A DNA stretch of 51,102 bases from an uncultured Candidatus Competibacteraceae bacterium (lineage in GTDB: Bacteria > Pseudomonadota > Gammaproteobacteria > Competibacterales > Competibacteraceae), in the NCBI GenBank assembly GCA_903879705.1, contig CAIRMO010000101.1, forward strand, positions 1-51,102, written 5' to 3'. Made by a program: the position numbers and the translations under genes. Below are positions 33,801 through 51,000 of the stretch, in pieces. The notes beneath the pieces are model-generated. The model searched no databases. It saw nothing but the letters and a program-made list of their open reading frames with translations, and was not told the DNA's origin. The first letter of the stretch is position 1. Every line of letters begins with the position of its first letter.

Positions 33801-34088
33801 GCCGATCCGGCGCTGGATCGACCCTTTGGCGAACTGGGCCTGAATTCGCTGGCCGCGATTACCTTGCGCAACCGATTGTCCGGGCGACTTGGCTTACCTA
33901 TCCCGGCGACGCTCGCTTTCAACCATCCTTCAGTCGCGGCTATCGTCCGATTTCTTGCTACCCGTTCTATTGCCACCCCGCCAGCGTCATCCACGAATCG
34001 CTCCCGGATTGAGCGCATGACCGAGGTTGAGGCTGAACAACACTTGGCTGCTTTACTGGCCGATCTTGAGTCGAAAACCCGCCCATGA
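30855..34088 (+). CDS. Polyketide synthase B: single AT-less module KS-KR-ACP
   Basis: 1077 aa; starts with GTG in a GTGA overlap with PKS A. Order: an N-terminal coiled-coil docking helix (ALNALERMQARLEAVQQ), KS 36-445 (Cys200 in VDAACASAL, His335 in EAHATGT, His373 in NLGHLEA), post-AT motif SPPFQRRRFWLD (457-468), a repeat-derived insert (473-499), KR with TGGMGGIG at 703 and Tyr842, ACP with LGLNSLAA (Ser998; the usual Asp is Asn997), and a C-terminal docking tail (MTEVEAEQHLAALLADLE). There is no AT and no KS-AT linker: the KS runs directly into the motif that normally follows an AT. Extension would need malonyl loading in trans, or the module only passes on and reduces the chain. The KR has Cys, not Trp, eight residues before Tyr and no LDD, so its stereochemistry is unclear. 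Confidence 0.95.
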   Translation: MTGHSTAETEALRRALNALERMQARLEAVQQAAREPIAVIGLGCRFPGTEGPEAFADFLETGGDAVGEIPAERAGPFAAVSVAAVRRGGFFADVAGFDAGRFGVSDAEALAMDPHQRLVLELAWEALADAGLTEGALAGTRTGVYLALGAQNNDYAGWLLNDPQRLNSHVIGGSFHSLMPGRLSYLLDLRGPSLVVDAACASALTALHLAGQALRRRECDTALVAAVNLVLSPLVALAVQQSGLLSPSGRCRSFDASADGFVRGEGGGVLVLKRLSDAVATGAEPWAVILGSAIGQDGHGNGLSAPHGPAQEAILRQALAEAGVEPAAVGYVEAHATGTRLGDAIEAQALGAVYSVNRAHPLRIGAVKPNLGHLEAASGMAGLIKVILAMQRRIIPPTLHLERLNSDIDPAELEPVTVPTPWPENAALAGVSAFGMSGAGAHVIVGPTVNQRRSRLVSPPFQRRRFWLDDPQFVIPAKAGIHDGSANDWIPAFAGMTASESRDLNDLIYQLDWRPAPFAAPHRAPGRLLLLGDEALAHRLLPGLVLAGFTAAPATTECLPDDPEATLLYLAGGGLEPDLATLRQQERRILGGLLRLVQGVAEQKARRLWIVTEGGWDQSLTAAMTLALGRTIALEHPELGCRRIDLDPQLADPSTVLAEDLASDDDEEWVRQTPAGRLIPRLTPFTVKVQPFTARPDAAYLITGGMGGIGRAVAGWLIARGARHLLLLGRTLRQCPERAAWKAQGVQVKTVAADVADPAALAEILAGLDAEGVPLAGVFHVAGVTADQLLFRQDWPAFANALRAKAEGALALHQATAGRPLDMFVLFSSITVLCGLAGTGAYAAANAALGALARWRRRQNLPALSIQWGTWEGSGMAEAAGAELVAQWQAHGLLSFPPATGLAALEALLATPDLVEAVAARADWSRLARWAREEGSGAELYAERVPAIASLRPVTVERPVVNDQSLETLVRESVAEVLGLAVADPALDRPFGELGLNSLAAITLRNRLSGRLGLPIPATLAFNHPSVAAIVRFLATRSIATPPASSTNRSRIERMTEVEAEQHLAALLADLESKTRP
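32160..32270 (+). other. Site of AT loss in PKS B
   Basis: The KS C terminus here is SAFGMSGAGAHVIVG, where canonical KS domains read [14 protein letters not shown]. Ten or so residues later comes the post-AT linker SPPFQRRRFWLD, equivalent to [13 protein letters not shown] in the other modules. In this cluster KS end and post-AT motif are otherwise about 400 residues apart. This is a clean in-frame loss of the whole linker plus AT, not a frameshift or stop. Confidence 0.85.
32273..32345 (+). repeat. Paired-hairpin repeat (dRS3-like), in frame in PKS B
   Basis: Outer arms CGTCATACCCGC (32273-32284) and GCGGGTATGACG (32334-32345) are perfect inverted repeats. Inside are two small hairpins, CCCGC-AAAA-GCGGG and CCCGC-ATTC-GCGGG. 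Translated as VIPAKAGIHDG...WIPAFAGMT, a peptide well known from spurious and hybrid proteins carrying this genomic repeat. It lies just after the post-AT motif, before the KR structural region. A half copy is intergenic at 40920-40949. Confidence 0.9.
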
Positions 34089-37000
34089 CGATGCCCCCCC
34101 ATTCCGCCCCCGATGACTTGAGTCCGCTCAAACGCGCCATTCTGACCATCGAAGACCTCAAAACCCGCCTGGCCCGCGCTGAGGCCCCGACGCCGATTGC
34201 CGTGATCGGCATCGGTTGCCGTTTTCCGGGCGGCGTGAACGGACCGGAGGCGTTCTGGCGGCTGCTGATCGAAGGCCGCTCCGGCATCATCGAGACGCCG
34301 CCCAATCGCTGGAATAGCGCGGACTGGTATGACCCTGACCGCAATGTCCCCGGCAAGATGAATATGCGCTGCGCCGGGTTTCTCGCCGACGGCATCGACC
34401 GGTTTGATGCCGGCTTTTTCAGTATTGCCCCGCGGGAAGCGGCCAGCATGGACCCCCAACAACGCTTGTTACTGGAAGTGGCCTGGGAAACGCTGGAAAA
34501 CGCGGCGCTCGCTCCGGATCGGATTAAAGGCGCGAATTGCGGGGTTTTCGTCGGGCTGTACCACAACAACTACGCGCTGAGCGGGCGCGGTTCGCCGGCC
34601 CCGGAGATCATTGACGGCTGGTCGGCGTCAGGCAGCCATACCAGTATCGCGGCGGGTCGCCTGTCCTATCTGCTCGATCTGAAAGGGCCGAGCCTAGCCG
34701 TCGATACCGCCTGTTCTTCGTCGCTGGTCGCGGTGCATCTGGCGGTGCGTAGCCTGCAATCCGGCGAGTGCAATCTGGCTCTGGCGGGCGGCGTCCACTT
34801 GCTGTTAGCACCCGAAGCGCTGGTGGCCAGCACCAAACTCGGCGCGACCGCCCCCGATGGCCGGTGCAAGGCGTTCGATGCCGCCGCTGACGGCTTCGGC
34901 CACGGTGAAGGGTGCGGGCTGGTGGTACTCAAACGGCTGCCGGAGGCGCTGGCCGATGGCAACCGGGTGTTGGCGATCATCCACGGTTCGGCGGTGAATC
35001 AGGATGGCCGTTCCAACAGCCTGACCGCGCCGAATGGCCCGGCTCAGGAGGCGGTGATCCGTGCCGCCTTGACCCGCGCCGGTATTGCGCCGCGTCTGAT
35101 GTCCTATGTGGAAGCCCACGGCACCGGCACCCGCTTGGGCGATCCCATTGAAATCGAGGCGCTATCAACGGTTCTCGGCCCCGGGCGGGATACGCCGCTG
35201 ATGGTCGGTTCGGTCAAAACCAATATCGGTCATCTGGAAGCTGCCGCCGGGATAGCCGGATTGATCAAAGCGGTGCTGTGCGTCGAGCATGGCCTGATCC
35301 CGCCACATTTGAATTTCACCGCGTTGAACCCGGAAATCGACCCGGAACGGGCGCGACTGGTGATTCCCACTGAACCCATCGCCTGGGCCGGCGTGGATGG
35401 ACGGCGGATCGCCGGAGTCAGCGCTTTCGGCTTCGGCGGTACCAATGCCCATCTGGTGCTGGAGTCGAACCACCCCGGCGCTCCGCGCTACCCCTCTTTA
35501 GCCAAGGAGGGGAATGTGCAGGTGTTGCCGCTCTCGGCGCGCGATCCGCAGGCGCTGACGGAACTCGTAGCGCGCTGGGCGGATTGGCTGGAGGAAACGG
35601 CTGAACCGTTCGCGGCCATTGCCCAAACCGCCAGTGCTGGTCGCGATCACTTTGCGCATCGCCTGGCGGTGACGGTAACTGATGCCCGTGCTGCCGCTAC
35701 GGCGCTCCGTCGGGCGGTTCCGGTTGAAGTCAGGAATGCGCCGCGCATTGCGTTCCTGTTCACCGGGCAGGGTTCTCAATACCCCGGCATGGCCCGCCGC
35801 GCCTATGCGTGCTTCCCGGTGTTTCGCGCCGCGCTGGACCGCTATGCCGGCATCCTCGATGCGCCGCTGGGTTGTTCGGCGCTCGATCTGCTGTTTGGCG
35901 AGGCGTCAATCGACAATACCGGCCTCGCGCAACCGCTGGTGGTGGCGGTGGAACTGGCTTTAGTAGACCTGTGGCACTCCTGGGGCATCACGCCGGTAGC
36001 GGTGATGGGCCATAGCGTCGGTGAGTATGCCGCGGCAGTCGTGGCCGGCGTGTTCACTCCGGCAGAGGCGCTCGCGCTGGTGGCGGAACGTGGGCGGTTG
36101 ATGCAGTCCTTGCCCGCCGGTGGCGGCATGTTGGCCGTTTTCGCGCCCGTGGAAGCTGTGGAACCGTGGCTGGCGGTCGTGGACGGCATTCTGGATTTGG
36201 CCGGATTCAATGGCCCGGCCAATACCGTGGTGTCGGGCGATCTCGCGGCGCTGGATCGGTTGGCCGAACGGCTGGATCAACGCGGCATCGACAGTCGTCG
36301 GCTGGCGGTGTCCCATGCTTTTCATTCGGCGTTGCTGGAGCCGGCGCTGCCGGGACTGGAGCAGGCGGCTGGCCGCTACGGTGTGCGTCATGCCCACCTG
36401 CCGCTGATCTCCAACCTGACCGGAACGCCGCGTGAGACCTTCGACGCCGGCTACTGGCGGGAACATGCCCGCCAGCCGGTGCGGTTTGTTCAGGGTCTGG
36501 AAGCCTTGCAGGCGCTGGGTTGCGCTGTTTTTCTGGAAATTGGGCCACAGGCGATCTTGACCGCACTGGGTAAAGCGGCGCGGGACAAGGGCCGCTGGCT
36601 GACTTCGTTGCGGCGCGGGGTGGCGGATGACGCCGGTTTGGCTGAGGCGCTGGCGGGACTTTATCAAGCGGGCGCAGCGGTCGATTGGGCGGGGGTGTTC
36701 GCCGAAACCCGTCCGGGCTGGGTGGCCGCACCGACCTATCCGTTCCAGCGCCGGCGCTATTGGCTGGATGTGCCGCAGATAGAGCGGGCGGCTCATCCGT
36801 TCTCCCCTCGTCCGCTGGCGGGAGCGGGGCTGGGGGAAGGTTCAGCCCTGGTCTACGATTTCTACGACGAATTGACCGTGGTTTCGCGCACCTACGAGAC
36901 TTCCGGCACCGCCGATCTGGACGCAGAAGGCCACCTGACCTTTGGTTTCCTGCCGGAACCGGTTCCGGGCTTTTCCTGGGTGCGGGCGTTGTTCGAGAAG

Positions 37001-40000
37001 GACGAGAATCCCGACGCTCATGCCTTGTTCCGCGCCAGTCAGCGGGAACTCAAGGACAGTCTGTTCGTCGGCATCGACTTTTCCCGCATGAGGCGGGTCT
37101 TCGACTATGGCTGCGGGCACGCCGCTGATGTGTGCAGCCTGGCGCTGCATCATCCGCAACTCGAACTTCAGGGCTACACGCTGTCGGCCCGGCAGGTCGA
37201 GGTCGGCACCGAACGCATCGCCCGGCTGGGCTTGCAAAACCGGGTGCGGGTGCAACGCAATGATTCCAGCGCCGTCCCTTTCCCCGGCCAGTTCGATCTG
37301 ATTTTCGGTTTTGAGGTCACCGGCCTGATCGCTGACAAGGAAGCCTTGTTCGACAATATCGCCACGCATCTGGCCCCCGGCGGGCTGCTGGTGATCGCTG
37401 ATTTTGTCGCGACCGCCGATCCCATTGCCAATCCAGAAACGCATTCCTTCACCCCGGATTTCCCGCAATGGGCGGCACTGTTTGGCAACCGGCGCTTGCG
37501 GTTGACCCGGGCGGTGGACGCCAGCCTTGAAATCGCCAACTGGCTCGAAGACCCGAATATCGAGGCCAACGTCGCGGCGCTGGCTACCCGGTTCGGGCTG
37601 GGCGAACTGACCTGTCGACACCTGCTCTCGAACGCCAATATCGGCAAGGCGTTGCGCGTTGATCTCATGCGCTACCTGCTGTTGACCGCGCAGGCCGCGC
37701 CCCACGAAGAAGAAGCCGTTCTGCGGGAGGCCAATCAAATCCTGTTGCGGAATGCCCGGCGCTTGGGCGCTGCTCCCCAAAATTCCCCCGGCTTTGCTAC
37801 CCCCCTTCCTAAAAGGGGAGGCAGAGAGGGCGTCACTCCTTCCCTTAAAAAAGGAGGGTTGGGGGGAATTTTCCAGTGGCGGCATTGGCTCTATGGCATC
37901 GACTGGCTCACCCTGCCAAACACCGAACCGCTGCCTGATCCCGCCGTGATCGCCGCGGCGCTGGTTTTCGACGTTGTGCGGGAACGGGCAGCGCTGGAAC
38001 CTTTCGCGGCAGCGGGCGCAACCGCCGACCGGTTAAGCCTCGATTACACGGTCGCCGCCTTCCGTGCGCTCGGCTGCGCCGATGTGGACGCCGCCGCCCG
38101 GGTCGAAATCGCCGCGCCTTTCCGCCGGTTGCGCGACCGGTTGATCGCGGTGATGACGGCGGCGGGTCTGCATGAATTGCCTGATCCCGGCGACCCGGAC
38201 GCCCGCGCCGCTGAGGCATTAGCCCGCCATCCCGAAGCAGAAGCCGAATTTACGTTATTGCGCCGCTGCGGCGGGCCGTTGAGTCAAGTGCTGACTGGAC
38301 AGGTTGATCCGCTGGAATTGCTGTTTCCCGGTGGTGATATTCGCCTGGCCGAGCGGCTGTATGAACGGTCCCCGTTTTCACAGGCGGTACAGCGCCTGGT
38401 CGGGCAGGCGGTGGCCCATTTGCCGCGTACTCGGCCATTGGCAATTTTGGAGATCGGCGGCGGTTCCGGCGCGACCACTGCTCATGTGTTGCCCCATCTG
38501 TCGCCGGGTAGCCGCTATCTGTTCACTGATCTCGGCGCAGGACTGGTCGATCGGGCGCAGGACAAGTTTGCCGGGGCGGGTCTGGATTATGCGGTGCTGG
38601 ACATCGCCCGCCCGCTGGAGGGTCAGGGCATCGCCACTGGCGTTTGGGATGTGGTCGTGGCCGCCAATGTGCTGCATGCCACCCCTGATCTGGCCCGTAC
38701 CCTGGGCCATGTCCGGGAGTTATTGACGCCCGGTGGCCTGCTGCTGTTGATTGAGAACACCGGACGACTGAACTGGGGGGATTTGACCTTCGGCCTGACC
38801 GATGGCATGTGGAACTTTACCGACACCGGCTTGCGCGATTACGCCTTGCTCTATCAAAGCCAGTGGCGGGAATTACTGCCGCGCTGTGGATTCGAGAATC
38901 TCGCTCTGCTCACGCCAGGCGAACCGGATCAAGGTGGCTTGTCGCAACAGTGCGTGATGCTGGCGCGGCGCAATGCCCGGCGGCATTGGTTGTTAGCCAG
39001 TAGCCCGGATGCACTGACCGCTCCGCTGGTTCAAGCCCTGACCGCGACCGGCGACCGCTGTACCTGCATTGGAGCGCTTACCGATGAACCCGATGAAGGG
39101 CTGGCGGAGGTGAGCGATGTGGTTTATCTGGGTGCCGTCGAGGCTACTGATCCCTTACAACAGAAAGCCGTATTGGCTCCGGCGCTGGCGCTGGCCAAAA
39201 TCCTGGTCAATTGGGCCGAGCCGCCGCGTCTGACCCTCGTCACTCGTGGCGCTCAGGCGGTGGGCGACCGGAGGCAACCGGCGCAAGCGACCCTGCTGGG
39301 TTTCGGGCGGGCGCTGCTGGGCGAGGTGAGGGAACTGCATACCCGCCTGATTGATCTTGATCCCGTCGATTCCATCGCCGATCAGGTGGCGGCGCTGACC
39401 GATGAATTAACCCTTGGCCGTGAAAATGAAATGGCCCGGCGGGGCGGTCTTCGTCAGCAACCGCAACTGGTGCGCCGGGCCGCAACGCCGGTTGCGCCGC
39501 CGCGCTTCGATCCGACGGTCAGCACTCTGGTCACCGGCGCGTTTGGTGGTTTGGGGCTGAAAGTAGCGGGCTGGCTGGTCGAACATGGCGCGAGAACGCT
39601 GGTTCTGGCGGGTCGCAACCTGCCCACGCCGGAAGCTGAAACGGTGCTGGACGCCTTACGCAGTCAGGGCGTTCGGGTGTTGCCGATCCGTTGCGACGTA
39701 GCGGATCGCGCTCAGGTTCAGGCACTGATTGCCGCCGCGCAGGAAGCCGCTCCGCTGAAAGGGGTAATTCACGCCGCCGGGGCGCTGGCCGACGCCCGTC
39801 TGGCGGGACAGACCTGGGAGATGTTCGAGCGCGTATTGGCGGCCAAAGTCCTCGGCTCCTGGCATTTGCATGAGTTGACCGTTGATCTCGATCTGGAGCA
39901 TTTCGTGCTGTTTTCGTCGGCCGCCGGCTTTCTCGGACCCGCTGGACAAACCAATCACGCTGCCGCTAACAGCTTTATCGATGCGTTGGCTCATGCCCGG

Positions 40001-40735
40001 CGCGCTTCTGGTCTACCTGCGCTGGCGGTGGACTGGGGTGCTTGGGCCGAAGTCGGTGCAGCAGTGCGCGATGATCTGGAAGCTCGGGTAGAACGCACCG
40101 GGTTGATCCACATGGCCCCGGAACCGGCCTTGGCGGCGCTGGATTGGGCGATGAGCCAGAACGCGCCGCAAATCGCCATTCTGGACGCCGACTGGGCGAC
40201 TTATCGGCAACGCTTCCTGCGGGGTGGCGTACCCGGGTTGCTGGCCGGACTGACCGTTGCGATAAATCCCCCCGTATCCCGGTCCTCGTTCCCTCTCCAA
40301 AAAGCCGAGGAGAACCGCCGGGATCAACCGGGATCGGTCACTCTGCGTGAACAATTGGCTGCGATTCCGGTTTCGCAGCGGCTGGATAGATTGATGGACG
40401 CGATTCGCGCTCAAGCCGCCAGGATCATGCGGCTGGACGAGGTCGGCAATATCACTGACGAGCGCCCGTTGCGCGATCTGGGCCTTGACTCGCTGATGGC
40501 GGTGGAAATGCGTAACGCCTTGGCCGCTCAGGTTGGGGCGAAGTTGGCCGCAACGCTGTTGTTCGACCAGCCGAGCGTTGGAGCATTGGCGGTGTTTCTG
40601 GCTGGTAGCGTTTTCGCTGAATTATTTCCGGTTCAACCGGATGAGGGCGAAAAGACCGAATTGGCCGGACTGGATGTGTCTGCTCTGTCGGCGTTGTTGG
40701 ATGCTGAACTGGGAGAAATAAAAACGGATGCTTAA
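34085..40735 (+). CDS. Polyketide synthase C: KS-AT-MT-cMT-KR-ACP
   Basis: 2216 aa, starting in an ATGA overlap with PKS B. Order: N-terminal docking helix ([19 protein letters not shown]), KS 37-455 (Cys210, His345, His383), AT with GHSVGEY (Ser644) and HAFH (malonyl), a first SAM-methyltransferase from about 923 ([13 protein letters not shown] loop [10 protein letters not shown] at 1006), a second methyltransferase of the usual PKS C-methyl type (EIGGGSG at 1456; NVLHATPDL), KR with TGAFGGLG at 1817 but NHAAAN for NYAAAN (Tyr replaced by His1958), and ACP (LGLDSLMA, Ser2136). The tail [18 protein letters not shown] resembles a docking segment, yet no further PKS follows and there is no releasing domain. 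Tandem methyltransferases suggest C- plus O-methylation. Repeat-derived inserts lie after the KS, after the AT and between the methyltransferases. Confidence 0.95.
35465..35513 (+). repeat. ~50-bp palindromic element, in frame in KS5-AT5 linker
   Basis: TCGAACCACCCCGGCGC then TCC then GCGCTACCCCTCTTTAGCC and AAGGAGGGGA. Translated [17 protein letters not shown], the same frame as the copy at 19320 and nearly the same peptide, but in a different linker of a different protein. It directly follows the KS end motif NAHLVLE. Confidence 0.87.
36801..36840 (+). repeat. GC-rich hairpin element, in frame between AT5 and first MT
   Basis: TCTCCCCTCGTCCGCTGGCG then GGAGCGGGGCTGGGGGAAGG, translated as [14 protein letters not shown]. 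It is a diverged member of the family at 28773; the hairpin is imperfect. Confidence 0.65.
36848..38990 (+). other. Tandem methyltransferase domains of PKS C
   Basis: Two unrelated class I SAM-dependent methyltransferases follow the AT. The first (about residues 922-1230) begins VYDFYDEL and has [17 protein letters not shown] and [16 protein letters not shown]. It resembles stand-alone-like methyltransferases inserted in cyanobacterial and myxobacterial PKS modules; O- or C-specificity cannot be told from motifs alone. The second (about 1262-1620) is the standard PKS C-methyltransferase, close in layout to the one in module 1. An 84-bp repeat element is translated as the linker between them. 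Confidence 0.8.
37789..37872 (+). repeat. 84-bp MITE-like element, in frame between the two MT domains
   Basis: Perfect 11-bp terminal inverted repeats, AAAATTCCCCC (37789-37799) and GGGGGAATTTT (37862-37872), enclose two internal hairpins (CCCCCTTCC-TAAA-AGGGGAGG and CTCCTTCCC-TTAAAA-AAGGAGGG). The length is exactly 28 codons. Translated from [15 protein letters not shown] to [10 protein letters not shown]. It forms the linker between the first and second methyltransferase of PKS C. Confidence 0.88.
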
Positions 40736-41041: not shown

Positions 41042-41896
41042 ATGAATATGAGCAACGAAGTTGATTTGCAGGATTGGGTAGGCCGCACGGAGGAGTTGCA
41101 TGATCGGATTGATCCGACGCCGGTGCTGGCCATGGCTCGCACTCTGGATCATCGGGAATTTACGGCCCGATTCGGAGAACCGTTGCCAGAACTCTGGCAT
41201 TGGCTCTATTTTCTCCCGATGGTGGCACAATCCAGAATCGGCGCAGATGGTCATCCTGAAAAAGGCGGATTTTTACCGCCGGTGGCACTGGAAAGACGGA
41301 TGTGGGCCAGTAGCCGATTAACTTTTCATCAGGACTTAATCATTGGAGAGGAAATCCACAAGACTTCGGAAATTCTCAGGATTTCAGAAAAACAGGGCAA
41401 AACCGGCAGCATGGTGTTTGTTACTGTCCGGCATTTAACGCATTCAAAACAAGGGCTGGCGATTAGCGAAGAACAGGATATTGTTTACTTGCCGATGCCT
41501 AAAATCTTTGTGCCACCACCGCCTAATCGATTACCCGATCATTTGCAATGGCGGGAAAACTATCCGGTCGACCCCGTACTGTTATTCCGCTTTTCCGCGC
41601 TGACTTTCAATGCCCACCGGATTCATTATGATGTGAACTACGCTACTGAAGTGGAGAAGTACCCAGGGCTGGTCGTGCATGGCCCGCTACAGGCGATCTT
41701 GTTGATGGAATCGGCAAAGCGGCATCATCCAGCCCAAAAACCGGCGGTCTACGCCTTCCGGGCCATGCGCCCACTTTTTGTATTTGACCCGATCGCGGTT
41801 TGCGGTCAAACTAAACCTGATGGCAACCTTGAGTTATATACTGCCAATGGCGATGATTGTATCGGGATGCAAGCTAACCTGAACTGGAGATCATAA
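41042..41896 (+). CDS. Mesaconyl-C4-CoA hydratase-like protein (MaoC/HTD2 fold)
   Basis: Probably hydrates mesaconyl-C4-CoA (or itaconyl-CoA) to (S)-citramalyl-CoA. The 284 aa (about 31 kDa) have two hotdog halves. The first has FLPPVALERRMWASSRLTFH and EKQGKTGSMVFVTVRH, typical of Meh/HTD2-type proteins. The second has FNAHRIHYDVNYA followed by YPGLVVHGPLQA, the MaoC-type active-site region. AAGGAG lies three bases before the ATG at 41042 and nine bases before a second ATG at 41048, so translation may really start at 41048 (MSNEVDL). It is first in a three-gene operon with a CitE-type lyase and Mct, which together form the citramalyl-CoA route. Codon use is visibly more AT-rich than in the PKS genes. 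Confidence 0.8.
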   Translation: MNMSNEVDLQDWVGRTEELHDRIDPTPVLAMARTLDHREFTARFGEPLPELWHWLYFLPMVAQSRIGADGHPEKGGFLPPVALERRMWASSRLTFHQDLIIGEEIHKTSEILRISEKQGKTGSMVFVTVRHLTHSKQGLAISEEQDIVYLPMPKIFVPPPPNRLPDHLQWRENYPVDPVLLFRFSALTFNAHRIHYDVNYATEVEKYPGLVVHGPLQAILLMESAKRHHPAQKPAVYAFRAMRPLFVFDPIAVCGQTKPDGNLELYTANGDDCIGMQANLNWRS

Positions 41897-41898
41897 AT

Positions 41899-42819
41899 AT
41901 GGCTGAAAAACTGGAGCGTTCGGTATTATTGGCACCCGGTTCCAACTGGAAAATGATCGAGAAAACCACAGCTTCAAAAGCTGATGCTGTTTGTATCGAT
42001 TTGGAAGATGCAGTAGCGCCGGGAGAAAAGCAAGCCGGTCGGGCTAATGTGATTCGGGCTTATCGAGAATTGGATTTTGGCAATAAATTGCGCATGTTCA
42101 GGATGAATGGACTGGATACCCATTTTGCCTACCGCGATTTGATTGAAATCATTGAAGCGGTCGGTGATCGAATTGATCGGGTGGTCGTACCGAAGGTCAA
42201 TCGTCCGGAGGATATTCTGTTTGTGGCGACGCTACTGGAACAGATTGAAAGTTATAAAAGTTATTCACGCCCGATTGGAATTGAAGCCCTGATTGAAACC
42301 GCGCTCGGCTGCATCAATATCAAGGACATTGCCGCTTGTTCTGACCGGCTCAAAGGACTGGTTTACGGTCCCGGCGATTATGCGGCCTCAGTCCAAATGC
42401 CACTGGAATCGATTGGCGAAATGGACGAAAATGACCGGATTTATCCCGGTCACCGCTGGCATCATGTCATGCACTCACTGGTGAGCGCTGCCCGAGCCTA
42501 TGGCAAGCAGGTGATTGACGGGCCGTTTGCCGGAATCAAAAACATCGAGGGTTTAACCCAAGCCTGTAAAATCAGCCTGGCCATGGGTTTCGATGGAAAA
42601 TGGTGTATTCATCCGGGACAGCTTGACACCGTTAATCAACTCTTTGTTCCGTCACCCAAGGATATTGCCTGGGCGAAACACGTCCTGAGTGAATATGAAG
42701 CTGCATTAAAAGAAGGCCGGGGCGCGATCAGCGTCAAGGGTAAAATGATTGATGTTGCTTCCCTCAGAATGTGCCAGCACATTGTCGAGAAAGCGAAGTC
42801 AGCCGGATTGTTGAACTGA
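41899..42819 (+). CDS. Citramalyl-CoA / malyl-CoA lyase, CitE-like (HpcH/HpaI family)
   Basis: Cleaves (S)-citramalyl-CoA to acetyl-CoA and pyruvate, and/or malyl-CoA and beta-methylmalyl-CoA. At 306 aa it shows the family landmarks SVLLAPGSN, CIDLEDAVAPGEK (metal-binding acidic residue), VVVPKVNRPEDI, IGIEALIETALG (metal-binding Glu) and GFDGKWCIHPGQ. The segment GPGDYAAS is a variant of GPADLAAS seen in malyl-CoA lyases. GGAG nine bases upstream lies inside the end of the preceding gene; the two genes are two bases apart. Substrate preference within the malyl/citramalyl group cannot be told from the sequence; the neighbours favour citramalyl-CoA. Confidence 0.85.
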   Translation: MAEKLERSVLLAPGSNWKMIEKTTASKADAVCIDLEDAVAPGEKQAGRANVIRAYRELDFGNKLRMFRMNGLDTHFAYRDLIEIIEAVGDRIDRVVVPKVNRPEDILFVATLLEQIESYKSYSRPIGIEALIETALGCINIKDIAACSDRLKGLVYGPGDYAASVQMPLESIGEMDENDRIYPGHRWHHVMHSLVSAARAYGKQVIDGPFAGIKNIEGLTQACKISLAMGFDGKWCIHPGQLDTVNQLFVPSPKDIAWAKHVLSEYEAALKEGRGAISVKGKMIDVASLRMCQHIVEKAKSAGLLN

Positions 42820-42839
42820 ACAGCAAGGTCACTGATTCA

Positions 42840-44060
42840 ATGAGCAAAATACTGGAAGGATTGCGAATTGTGGAAGGATCCGCGTTTGTCGCCGCGCCAT
42901 TGGCCGGCATGACCTTGGCGCAAATGGGCGCTGATGTCATTCGTTTTGATCGGCTTCAGGGCGGGTTGGATTATCACCGCTGGCCGGTGACGAAAGATAA
43001 TAAAAGCCTGTTCTGGGCCGGATTGAATAAAGGCAAGCGCTCGCTTGCGGTGGATTTAAACCATCCGCAGGGTCAGGAAATCGTGACCCGGCTCATTTGC
43101 TCACCCGATCCCAATGCCGGAATTTTTCTGACCAATCTCCGGGTGCGGGGCTGGATGGATTATGAACACTTGAAAAAACACCGTGATGATTTAATCATGA
43201 TGACGGTGCTGGGTAATCGGGATGGCGGCCCGGCGGTGGATTATACGATCAATCCCGGCGTGGGTTTTCCTCACGTTACCGGCCCGGAGGATTCTACTGA
43301 CCCGGTCTGTCATGTACTGCCCGCCTGGGATTGCATCACCGGCCAGATGCTGGCGTTGGGACTGCTGGCAGCGGAGCGGCATCGCCGCATTACCGGGCAA
43401 GGCCAGGCAGTTGAAATTGCCCTGAAAGATGTCGCGTTGGCGATGCTGGGCAATCTGGGGATTATTGGCGAGGTTGCGATTAACGATTTTGATCGGCCTA
43501 AATACGGCAATTATCTTTATGGTGCTTACGGCCAGGATTTTCAAACCGCTGACAGCAGAAGAGTCATGATCGTGGGCTTGACTCGGCGGCAATGGAGTGG
43601 GCTGTGCAAAGTCACTGGCTTGCAAGCGAATCTGGCGGCGTTGGGAGAACAACTCGGCCTGAATTTAAACCACGAGGGCGACCGCTTCAAGGCCAGAAAA
43701 GAGATTACCGATCTGCTGAATCCGTGGTTCCGGGCTAGAAAAGTGGAGGATTTCGCCCAGTTGTTTAATGAGGCCGGCGTCACTTGGTCCGTATTTCGCA
43801 CCTTCCGGCAAACGCTGGAACAAGACCCGGAGTGCTCATCGCAACATCCGATGTTCAGCACCGTGGAGCAGCCGGGTATTGGCCCTTATCTGACGCCGGG
43901 CAGTCCGTTTGAATTCAGTCGTTGTGAACGGCAGCCGCCGAAACCGGCAGCGGTATTAGGGCAACATACCGATGAAATTCTGGCCGGGATTCTTGGTCTG
44001 AGCGACGCGGAAATTTCGCGGCTGCATGAGACCAAGGTCGTAGCCGGGCCGCGTCTTTAG
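42840..44060 (+). CDS. mct: 2-methylfumaryl-CoA isomerase (mesaconyl-CoA C1-C4 CoA transferase)
   Basis: Family III (CaiB/BaiF) CoA transferase that moves CoA within mesaconate from C1 to C4. The 406 aa fit the family. Motifs: GLRIVEGSAFVAAPLAGMTLAQMGADV is split over the N terminus, followed by NKGKRSLAVDL, GNRDGGPAVDYTINPGVGF (region of the catalytic Asp), HVLPAWDCITGQ, and RPKYGNYLYGAYG, which is characteristic of Mct relatives as opposed to formyl- or succinyl-CoA transferases. I chose the ATG at 42840 (21 bases after the lyase stop, AAGG 11 bases upstream); the frame is open to 42771 but that part overlaps the lyase gene. An itaconate CoA-transferase role is the main alternative. Confidence 0.85.
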   Translation: MSKILEGLRIVEGSAFVAAPLAGMTLAQMGADVIRFDRLQGGLDYHRWPVTKDNKSLFWAGLNKGKRSLAVDLNHPQGQEIVTRLICSPDPNAGIFLTNLRVRGWMDYEHLKKHRDDLIMMTVLGNRDGGPAVDYTINPGVGFPHVTGPEDSTDPVCHVLPAWDCITGQMLALGLLAAERHRRITGQGQAVEIALKDVALAMLGNLGIIGEVAINDFDRPKYGNYLYGAYGQDFQTADSRRVMIVGLTRRQWSGLCKVTGLQANLAALGEQLGLNLNHEGDRFKARKEITDLLNPWFRARKVEDFAQLFNEAGVTWSVFRTFRQTLEQDPECSSQHPMFSTVEQPGIGPYLTPGSPFEFSRCERQPPKPAAVLGQHTDEILAGILGLSDAEISRLHETKVVAGPRL

Positions 44061-44134: not shown

Positions 44135-45016
44135 TTAACCCCCGGCTTCCATCGCAGTCACTGCGTCAGCCATGCCCACCACCCGGAGGGCGCTTTCGAC
44201 ATGGAGATTTTCGACCAGCCGGCCATCCACCACTACCACTCCTTCGCCACGCGCCGCCGCCGCCGCATACGCCTCGATGATCCGGCGCGACCAGGCGACA
44301 TCCTCCGGGCGGGGCGTGAACACTTTATTGCAGGGCGCTAGCTGCTTCGGATGAATCAGGGTCTTGCCGTCAAAGCCCAGTTCGTGGCCCTGCCGACAGG
44401 CGAATTCAAATCCAGTCTCATCATTCAGATCGAGATAAACCCCGTCGAGAATGGCCAGACCTGCGGCGCGGGCGGCCAGCAAACACAGTCCCAGCGAGGC
44501 CATAAACGGCAGGCGTTCGTGGGTGTGGGCGCAATCCAGTTCCTTGGCCAGGTCCGAAGTTCCCATCACCAGGCATTCCATCCGTGGTGTCGATTCGGCG
44601 ATCCGTTGCGATTCCAGAATGCTGCGCGGGGTTTCCATCATCGCCCAGATGGTCATCGATTCCGGCGCGCCATTGGCCCGCATGATCGATTCCATGTGCC
44701 GAATCGCGTCGGCGCTTTCCACCTTGGGCAACAACAGAGCGTTGGCTCCGGATTTTGCCGCCAGCGCGATGTCTTCATAGCCCCATTTAGTGGACAGCGC
44801 GTTCACCCGGATAATCAGTTCGCGCATCCCGAACCCACCGGCGGTGACGGCTTCGCACACCTGCTTGCGGGCCAGTTCCTTGGCATCGGGGGCTACGGCG
44901 TCTTCCAGATCGAGAATCAGGCCATCGGCGGCCAATGTACGGGCCTTTTCGAGGGCGCGGGCGTTAGAGCCAGGCATGTACAACACACTGCGGCGAGGGC
45001 GCACGGATTTGGGCAT
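44135..45016 (-). CDS. Second CitE-like CoA-ester lyase (HpcH/HpaI family)
   Basis: 293 aa, a paralogue of the lyase at 41899 but clearly different in sequence. Motifs are RPRRSVLYMPGSN, GLILDLEDAVAPDAK, ALLLPKVESADA, IWAMMETPRSI (metal-binding Glu), CLVMGTSDLAKEL and GFDGKTLIHPKQ. The spacing fits the citrate-lyase-beta/citramalyl-CoA/malyl-CoA thioesterase group. AAGGAG seven bases upstream supports the start. It is convergent with the Meh-lyase-Mct operon, and its codon use resembles the GC-rich bulk of the window, so it may have a separate history. It may act as a (3S)-malyl-CoA thioesterase or as a second citramalyl/malyl-CoA lyase. Confidence 0.85.
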   Translation of the reverse strand: MPKSVRPRRSVLYMPGSNARALEKARTLAADGLILDLEDAVAPDAKELARKQVCEAVTAGGFGMRELIIRVNALSTKWGYEDIALAAKSGANALLLPKVESADAIRHMESIMRANGAPESMTIWAMMETPRSILESQRIAESTPRMECLVMGTSDLAKELDCAHTHERLPFMASLGLCLLAARAAGLAILDGVYLDLNDETGFEFACRQGHELGFDGKTLIHPKQLAPCNKVFTPRPEDVAWSRRIIEAYAAAAARGEGVVVVDGRLVENLHVESALRVVGMADAVTAMEAGG

Positions 45017-50421: not shown

Positions 50422-50574
50422 ACGCGAACTGGCCACTCGCAGGTCGCGCCGAGCGTGTCGCCGGTGATGCCACACCCAAATTGCGCGCCACAATCCAGCG
50501 GGCTATCGCCGAGGGCTGGGCTACAATCCGGTGGCCCGCCATCCCGGCGATCAGTCTCTAAGGAGTCAACGCCC

Positions 50575-51000
50575 ATGTACATCGCCAACCCCATGTACGA
50601 CACGGTTTTTAAATACTTGCTCGAAGACAATGTTCTCGCCAAGCTGCTGATTGGTACCATTATTCAGGAAGAGATCGTCAGCCTGGAGTTTCGCCCGCAG
50701 GAACGCACCAGCACGGTCGACCGTCCCGGCGAACGGGTGTTGACGGTGTACCGGATGGACTTTGCCGCTCGGGTGCGCAACGCGACCGGCGACGAACGGC
50801 AGGTGCTGATCGAATTACAGAAAGCCAAATACCCGACCGATATTTTGCGCTTCCGCCGCTACCTGGGCGCGCAATACCGCGACCCCGACAACACCCGGGC
50901 GATCGAGGTCAGGGCCGGTCAACGGAAGGCCCGCTGGGTGCGGCAGGGCATTCCGCTGTTGACTATACCTGACCGCGGTACAAGTTTAGATTTTTTCTAG
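50575..51000 (+). CDS. PD-(D/E)XK nuclease family transposase-like protein, truncated
   Basis: Family members (Rpn-like, 'PD-(D/E)XK nuclease family transposase') are usually around 300 aa; here only 141 aa remain. The start at 50575 has AAGGAG nine bases upstream and the family-typical opening MYIANPMYDTVFKYLLEDN. The nuclease core is present: RMDFAARV (Asp) and LIELQKAK (ExQxxK), then ILRFRRYLGAQY. Similarity to the family ends at GIPLLTI, where members continue YFLG. The remaining nine residues (PDRGTSLDFF) and the stop appear to come from an inserted element that begins at a TA dinucleotide (50966-50967). The rest of the gene is presumably beyond the element. A nuclease lacking its C-terminal half is probably inactive. 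Confidence 0.7.
   Translation: MYIANPMYDTVFKYLLEDNVLAKLLIGTIIQEEIVSLEFRPQERTSTVDRPGERVLTVYRMDFAARVRNATGDERQVLIELQKAKYPTDILRFRRYLGAQYRDPDNTRAIEVRAGQRKARWVRQGIPLLTIPDRGTSLDFF

Follow-up and report, generated by a model that had tools for sequence, protein, structure and literature searches.

The DNA analysed here, called the window, is a stretch of 51,102 nucleotides from an uncultured Candidatus Competibacteraceae bacterium (contig CAIRMO010000101.1 of assembly GCA_903879705.1). Positions 41042-44060 hold three adjacent genes, coding for a hydratase, a CitE-like lyase and a coenzyme A (CoA) transferase, which a first-pass annotation had placed in the 3-hydroxypropionate bi-cycle. The three open reading frames (ORFs) were confirmed, all of them on the + strand, with intergenic gaps of 2 and 20 bases:

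41042-41896, + strand: Meh-like hydratase, ORF of 284 amino acids, PF13452
41899-42819, + strand: CitE-like lyase, ORF of 306 amino acids, HpcH/HpaI family
42840-44060, + strand: Mct-like CoA transferase of 406 amino acids, ATG at 42840, CoA-transferase family III

Pfam recognized a FAS1/MaoC-type dehydratase region in the hydratase, an HpcH/HpaI (CitE-like) domain in the lyase and a family III CoA transferase in the third protein. The enzyme assignments of the annotation, and their order in the bi-cycle, hold at the level of homology, as judged from Pfam, PDB matches and residues. In this operon, Mct would convert mesaconyl-C1-CoA into mesaconyl-C4-CoA, the hydratase would then form (S)-citramalyl-CoA, and the lyase would split the latter into acetyl-CoA and pyruvate. 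In our view the operon probably encodes Mct together with a hydratase of mesaconyl-C4-CoA and a lyase of (S)-citramalyl-CoA, and mesaconyl-C1-CoA is probably a junction that may be fed in two ways. From gene presence, residues, gene order and phylogeny, which were observed, we infer the specificity and direction of the enzymes, the dominant feed, the flux and the physiological role.

The three enzymes of the operon

When compared with the PDB, the transferase matched the Mct structures of Chloroflexus (8apq, E 1.6e-178) and Roseiflexus (7xkg, E 2.1e-176), the next chain being far weaker (E 3e-29). It is identical to C. aurantiacus Mct at 254 of 403 aligned residues (63%). In the latter enzyme Asp165 is the catalytic residue and Arg47 and Tyr136 hold the free carboxyl, and Leu43 occupies a position that is always Leu or Ile in the set of intramolecular transferases which the structure paper compares (PMC9813914). 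Asp165, Leu43, Arg47, Asn100, Arg104 and Tyr136 are all retained in the window transferase, and the catalytic-site residues (Asp164, Arg47 and Tyr135 in its own numbering) are invariant across 10 aligned sequences. Furthermore, in an Mct tree of 47 rows the Competibacteraceae form one clade of 23 rows, in which the window is counted twice (support 99/98). Two family members fall outside this clade, G019 with Chloroflexus and a Gemmatimonadetes metagenome-assembled genome (MAG), and G008 with two Rhodospirillales MAGs; from their positions in the tree, these look like separate acquisitions.

The closest PDB relatives of the hydratase are 8huc (E 9e-71) and 8khg, an itaconyl-CoA hydratase (E 3.1e-70), and the alignment showed an FNxHRIHYD stretch common to the window protein and the solved relatives. 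It is predicted to make (S)-citramalyl-CoA from mesaconyl-C4-CoA or from itaconyl-CoA, two substrates that are indistinguishable by sequence alone.

The lyase matched malyl-CoA lyases (5ugr, E 6.9e-80; 4l9y, E 1.9e-66) and, at E 3.1e-41, the Chloroflexus-type enzyme 4l7z. Arg76, Glu141, Asp168 and the lid Asp (R. sphaeroides numbering), which are the catalytic and Mg-ligand positions examined, are retained. Together with four relatives it forms a clade of its own (100/100), separate from the malyl-CoA lyases of both the Chloroflexus and the Rhodobacter type, in a tree that contains long rows elsewhere than in this clade. The protein is thus predicted from its sequence to be an (S)-citramalyl-CoA lyase, possibly acting on malyl- and methylmalyl-CoA too. 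Since the genome encodes another malyl-CoA lyase (Mcl), the operon lyase is most simply read as dedicated to citramalyl-CoA, a reading tempered by the R. sphaeroides Mcl, which also forms citramalyl-CoA in vitro (PMC3832036). An identification with the trifunctional Chloroflexus Mcl was rejected, as the Chloroflexus type sits on another contig of the genome (C36) and the operon lyase lies in a separate clade.

In malyl-CoA lyases, a Pro and a Trp crowd the methyl group of pyruvate (PMC3832036). The homologous operon lyases of a Dasania strain and a Hahella MAG, described below, have Ser and Phe instead. Human CLYBL, which we take to be a citramalyl-CoA lyase, is without both Pro and Trp, and so are five thioesterase-type rows of the alignment; given the latter, the replacement is only suggestive as a sign of a citramalyl-CoA lyase.

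The same three classes of enzyme occur in itaconate clusters (PMC12290011), and the closest relatives of the hydratase include a solved itaconyl-CoA hydratase. The operon might thus serve the degradation of itaconate or methylsuccinate, with the CoA transferase activating the free acid, the hydratase forming (S)-citramalyl-CoA and the lyase releasing acetyl-CoA and pyruvate. The models argue otherwise: the transferase scored 614 bits on the Mct model and 98 bits on that of succinyl-CoA:mesaconate transferase, the lyase reached 151 bits on the RipC/Ccl model (cut-off 375), and the RipB/Ich model gave no match to the hydratase at E 0.001. Moreover, Leu43 and Arg47 of the sealed intramolecular site are retained, in a comparison made without any itaconate CoA transferase, and by eye no neighbouring ORF resembles an acyl-CoA dehydrogenase or an MmgE/PrpD protein. 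Itaconate degradation, which the first-pass annotation had itself raised as an alternative, is therefore disfavoured, though less firmly for the hydratase, and we regard it as very improbable.

Two possible feeds for mesaconyl-C1-CoA

The absence of the first hydratase of the bi-cycle branch, Mch, from the window was borne out, and a search of the genome found an Mch-type gene on contig C115. Its product is a 391-amino-acid double-MaoC protein that matches PF19315 (mesaconyl-CoA hydratase) at E 3.4e-22. Three bases separate this gene from that of a 573-amino-acid acyl-CoA dehydrogenase, Mcd, whose best PDB match is 8ciw, a (2S)-methylsuccinyl-CoA dehydrogenase (E 1.4e-183). Together with the operon, the Chloroflexus-type Mcl of contig C36 (E 3.8e-150 to 4l7z) and an smtA-smtB pair at the end of contig C34, homologues of the whole second half of the 3-hydroxypropionate bi-cycle (Mch, Mct, Meh, Mcl and SmtAB) are present in the genome. 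No NCBIfam model matched by the C34 proteins reaches its cut-off, and they are of SmtAB type by homology.

Enzymes of the ethylmalonyl-CoA pathway are encoded in the genome as well, namely Ccr, a probable Ecm-type mutase, MeaB, Mcd, Mch and Mcl. The Ccr of contig C22 scored 550 bits (cut-off 378.55), a cut-off that one of 14 named control genomes (Caulobacter) exceeded. On this contig ccr, meaB and the gene of a 667-amino-acid B12 mutase form one operon. The mutase reached 536 bits on the methylmalonyl-CoA mutase model (cut-off 876), and its operon context and its length, similar to that of Ecm, fit a putative Ecm-type enzyme. Two Ccr proteins of the family carry additional domains:

L063:8835-10589 (contig C22), - strand: ccr of the window genome, 584 amino acids, two C-terminal CBS stretches (PF00571)
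L059:720-2510, - strand: ccr of G008, 596 amino acids, two C-terminal CBS stretches (PF00571)

No CBS domain was found in the searched 411-residue part of the 428-residue Ccr frame of Dasania. The CBS domains suggest that the carboxylase may be under adenylate control; a text search of the literature found no paper holding both Ccr and CBS terms.

A further member of the ethylmalonyl-CoA pathway may lie next to the operon:

44135-45016, - strand: CitE-like protein resembling (3S)-malyl-CoA thioesterases, transcribed towards the operon

This protein, the operon lyase and the C36 lyase are the three PF03328 proteins of the genome. CitE-like superfamily lyases conserve the lid Asp, which is Glu in the proteins that cluster with the malyl-CoA thioesterase of R. 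sphaeroides (PMC3832036). The lid residue is Glu in 44135-45016 and in the other four members of its clade (5/5), and Asp in all 20 remaining rows, including the operon lyase. The protein also falls together with one whose gene lies close to mch in a Rhodobacter MAG. The best reading is a putative malyl-CoA thioesterase, which would belong to the ethylmalonyl-CoA pathway, as judged from an alignment without a named thioesterase sequence; a second citramalyl-CoA lyase is disfavoured by the lid Glu.

Mesaconyl-C1-CoA could thus be fed in two ways. First, the ethylmalonyl-CoA pathway would lead from crotonyl-CoA, via the CO2-fixing Ccr, Ecm and Mcd, to mesaconyl-C1-CoA; the net balance with the operon would be acetyl-CoA + CO2 + 2 NADPH to pyruvate, with one electron pair passed to electron-transfer flavoprotein or quinone. 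Second, propionyl-CoA and glyoxylate would be joined by the Chloroflexus-type malyl-CoA lyase, and Mch acting in reverse would yield mesaconyl-C1-CoA, the glyoxylate being supplied by SmtAB and Mcl or by isocitrate lyase, which is present in the genome. The first-pass annotation had described a half-cycle co-assimilating glyoxylate and propionyl-CoA without net CO2 fixation. The propionyl-CoA and glyoxylate feed is indeed possible; however, because the ethylmalonyl-CoA pathway makes mesaconyl-C1-CoA via a CO2-fixing step, the absence of net fixation becomes one of two readings. Regarding propionyl-CoA carboxylase, the genome search was only partly successful: two large carboxyltransferase subunits were found, one beside a biotin carboxylase and one near a protein resembling the beta subunit of Na+-pump decarboxylases, but both match the mmdA subfamily model below its cut-off, and the carboxylase is a possible component of the genome.

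The second half of the bi-cycle in Chloroflexus aurantiacus (Mch, Mct, Meh, Mcl and SmtAB) resembles this gene set in the identity of Mct noted above, in the Chloroflexus-type Mcl encoded elsewhere in the genome, and in the clustering of smtAB, meh and a CitE-like lyase gene in most relatives with enough sequence. It differs in that the operon lyase is of a separate clade and not the trifunctional Mcl, and in that Mch is 28% identical to the Chloroflexus-type Mch (that of G019) and is paired with mcd. Compared with the ethylmalonyl-CoA pathway of Rhodobacter and Methylobacterium, the enzymes named above and the malyl-CoA-thioesterase-type protein are alike, and the C-terminal CBS domains of Ccr are unlike. 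Partial sets of the 3-hydroxypropionate bi-cycle enzymes are also described for Kentron and other symbionts, with Competibacter named as a holder (PMC6593406); in Kentron the ethylmalonyl-CoA pathway was not predicted, whereas the window genome encodes it.

Distribution and gene order in the Competibacteraceae

A pattern scan was built from the window Mct, which favours near relatives; its 57 matched stretches corresponded to 39 loci. Mct was 77-92% identical in 22 of them, mostly from Candidatus Competibacter or Contendobacter or from Competibacteraceae MAGs, and 53-63% identical in the remaining 17. Among 37 Competibacteraceae genomes mct was found in 25, full-length or nearly so in 24 (>590 bits) and split in one (G034). 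No match above 120 bits was detected in 22 related genomes outside the family, and 5 of 14 named control genomes gave weak matches, none over the cut-off. The operon is a real, family-typical Mct branch. A contig titled Synechococcaceae cyanobacterium SM1_2_3 (L039) also holds a Competibacteraceae-type smt-meh-lyase-mct arrangement, with lyase and mct each in two frames, and was probably mis-binned.

The position of smt could be judged in 16 of the 22 family-type loci, those with a long enough upstream sequence. Fifteen of them carry smtA-smtB (at contig edges, smtB) ahead of the operon and on its strand, with 2 to about 2,850 bases before the next operon gene, as expected for the second half of the bi-cycle. 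Locus L002, of the same-genus genome G001, has no smtA-smtB within 8.2 kb upstream, and G001, which holds mct, ccr, ecm, mcd and mch, gave no smtA/smtB-like match. The window is a second exception, since smtAB lies on contig C34 and the operon adjoins an ORF that serves here as a break-point marker, outside the pathway:

34085-40735, + strand: last ORF of a large multi-enzyme block, 2,216 amino acids, directly upstream of the operon

This ORF closes about 27 kb of successive + strand ORFs (13839-40735; 248, 5421, 1077 and 2216 amino acids), called polyketide synthase (PKS) genes in the earlier annotation. At the same position two same-genus relatives hold smtA-smtB, and the upstream edge of the operon is likely a rearrangement or insertion point. 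Towards the end of the window, an ORF at 50455-51000 (+) looks by eye like a PD-(D/E)XK-type transposase or nuclease.

The operon had also been noted as more AT-rich than the PKS genes, which is correct: the guanine-plus-cytosine (GC) content is 50.4, 49.2 and 55.1% for the hydratase, lyase and mct genes, 64.0% for ORF 34085-40735, 61.8% for 44135-45016 and 62.1% for the whole window. The separate acquisition read from this contrast did not survive comparison with relatives. The mean GC of the three genes was below that of the neighbour gene in 11 of 11 distinct relatives' loci with four genes measured, a comparison that left out re-fetched contigs (L050 and L051) and short copies (L045-L047). 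Because the operon is family-wide, its Mct forms one main clade and the relatives are equally AT-biased, low GC is no proof of recent acquisition. AT-richness is common to the operon's relatives and is no sign of recent transfer into the window genome; recent horizontal transfer, as argued from composition, was rejected.

The order smtAB-meh-lyase-mct would be accounted for if the operon served solely to co-assimilate propionyl-CoA and glyoxylate, as a pure second half of the bi-cycle, and if the ethylmalonyl-CoA pathway ran separately to propionyl-CoA for polyhydroxyvalerate (PHV). Mch and Mcl are present for the glyoxylate branch, and Competibacter is named among the holders of bi-cycle enzymes (PMC6593406). 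However, the free intermediate mesaconyl-C1-CoA is common to both routes, so that their separation needs regulation or channelling. Moreover, the meh-lyase-mct block persists where smtAB is detached, as in the window genome, or undetected, as in G001, and outside the family mct stands beside ccr and/or mcd in 8 of 17 loci. We consider an operon dedicated to this single use rather unlikely, and return to mesaconyl-C1-CoA as a junction with two feeds.

A proposed coupling of Mct to the ethylmalonyl-CoA pathway

The 8 loci in question are of three kinds. A divergent arrangement, with ccr, meaB, ecm and mcd on one side and mct-meh-lyase on the other, occurs in Dasania sp. GY-MA-18 (L030) and in a Hahella MAG (L033). 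The gene order is ccr-lyase-hydratase-mct in a Myxococcales MAG (L024), and in five loci of Cellvibrionales, Porticoccaceae and Halieaceae (L032, L034-L037) mcd is directly upstream of mct. Only one of the 17 outside loci, from Gemmatimonadetes (L031), has a 3-hydroxypropionate-type set (smtA-smtB-mct-mcl-mch); meh adjoins mct in two others, genes for a lyase and a double-MaoC hydratase are present in three, and three show none of these. Among four further gammaproteobacterial Mct loci, mcd lies within 2 kb in three (two of one family, one of another) and not in the fourth. Since L030, L033 and the five mcd loci form one clade in the Mct tree (98/95), their adjacencies may go back to a single ancestral event.

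Several features of these loci were observed besides. By eye, from N-termini, the mcd-mct pairs of L032 and L034-L037, which have no Ccr match, lie amid acyl-CoA dehydrogenase-, thiolase-, hydratase- and acyl-CoA-ligase-like genes, and belong perhaps to a catabolic pathway ending in methylsuccinyl-CoA. In L024-L027 no window-type Meh was seen in the stretch examined, and mct adjoins the gene of a double-MaoC hydratase only distantly related to the Chloroflexus-type Mch (26-31% identity), possibly a non-orthologous mesaconyl-C4-CoA hydratase. In two gammaproteobacterial loci (L097 of G144 and L099 of G365) mct is near cofactor F420 biosynthesis genes: a CofGH fusion is over the cut-off in L097, and its L099 copy and the cofC/cofD-like neighbours were recognized by eye.

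Ccr was over the cut-off in 10 of the 17 outside genomes. As PF19315 alone seemed an insensitive detector of Mch, giving nothing in two Ccr-positive alphaproteobacterial genomes, an alignment of eight Mch proteins was used instead. Of the 10 genomes, two matched this profile strongly and over the full length (G062, 617 bits; G067, 534 bits) and four (G063-G066) distantly, at 106-123 bits. The other four, genomes of unstated completeness, had no full-length match, namely Rubrimonas, a Rhodobacteraceae MAG, Dasania and the Hahella MAG; the two alphaproteobacterial genomes were still without a full-length match. The adjacency of mct-meh-lyase to ccr-meaB-ecm-mcd in Dasania and the Hahella MAG, together with the lack of a full-length Mch match there, suggests a natural route from acetyl-CoA and CO2 to pyruvate. 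A complete route of this kind would run from Ccr through ethylmalonyl-, methylsuccinyl-, mesaconyl-C1-, mesaconyl-C4- and citramalyl-CoA to pyruvate, with neither pyruvate synthase nor a glyoxylate intermediate; it would stand alongside the ordinary ethylmalonyl-CoA pathway in the Competibacteraceae and be the only visible exit for mesaconyl-C1-CoA in Dasania and the Hahella MAG. We put this complete route forward tentatively, as a proposal with somewhat less than even chances.

Several points weigh against the junction or the coupled route. In the window transferase two CoA-gripping (adenosyl) positions are changed (Arg75 to Asn, Phe101 to Leu), and its 614 bits on NCBIfam TIGR04253 are under the cut-off of 725, which 1 of 59 genomes (G019) passes; this cut-off is treated here as a curation threshold rather than a biochemical defining feature, and the protein is termed Mct-like by its residues and phylogeny. 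The hydratase gene is absent from the operon in two relatives (L014 and L015). Within the Competibacteraceae the operon is accompanied by smtAB and not by ccr. Among 24 family genomes, 18 have an Mch-type frame and 12 a Ccr over the cut-off, the latter comprising 10 of the 17 genomes with Mct and 2 of the 7 without it, which shows no clear association; contig ends cut ccr in some genomes, and in G004 and G018 mcd-mch-ecm-meaB runs to or near the contig end. A scan of 369 gammaproteobacterial genomes yielded seven with Mct, four with Ccr and three with both, so that Ccr accompanies 3 of 7 Mct-positive and 1 of 362 Mct-negative genomes. The three with both are not independent, because all are Competibacteraceae. 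With Mch and Mcl in the window genome, mesaconyl-C1-CoA keeps its usual exit to glyoxylate and propionyl-CoA, and with isocitrate lyase a second acetate route is redundant. Finally, in Dasania and Hahella the place of Mch could be taken by a hydratase from a different family, and the Dasania genome has a thioesterase-type protein and, next to a family III CoA transferase, a malyl-CoA lyase of the Rhodobacter type, so that a glyoxylate exit fits there too.

As independent cases of co-occurrence are too few, gene adjacency was used as support for the link between Mct and Ccr, and its presence in two or three lineages is the strongest support for the coupling. Partial bi-cycle genes (PMC6593406) and ethylmalonyl-CoA-pathway genes (PMC8956781, PMC12604563) are already in print for Competibacter: PMC8956781 gives all seven genes of the latter pathway in Contendobacter and five in Competibacter, and PMC12604563 cites a 2014 genome analysis for it. 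What is new is the link from the Mct branch to the ethylmalonyl-CoA pathway, a coupling that is likely in chemical terms and unproven in physiological ones. A literature search that covered neither supplementary files nor subscription papers found no paper joining Ccr and the Mct route in a natural organism. The same reaction chain as that of the ethylmalonyl-CoA feed followed by the operon is known as an artificial pathway, the reductive citramalyl/ethylmalonyl-CoA pathway designed in 2021 (PMC10521678), with the net reaction acetyl-CoA + HCO3- + 2 NADPH + UQ -> pyruvate + 2 NADP+ + UQH2 + CoA (UQ, ubiquinone) and a table value of -39 +/- 9. There it is a computer design, whereas here its genes lie in natural genomes, for which the route is predicted. 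A related link is proposed for synthetic biology in PMC12290011.

If the coupling is true, it would provide synthetic biology with evolved enzymes and a ready-made operon, and Mct, known as a bi-cycle enzyme, would gain a second context. Oxygen-tolerant routes from acetyl-CoA and CO2 to pyruvate are few, and a new anaplerotic route would stand beside the glyoxylate, ethylmalonyl-CoA and methylaspartate routes. In glycogen-accumulating bacteria a likely use would be to rebuild glycogen from stored polyhydroxyalkanoate, with polyhydroxybutyrate entering through the ethylmalonyl-CoA feed and PHV through the propionyl-CoA and glyoxylate feed. The operon would thereby offer a direct explanation of how glycogen-accumulating wastewater bacteria could convert stored polyhydroxyalkanoate into glycogen.

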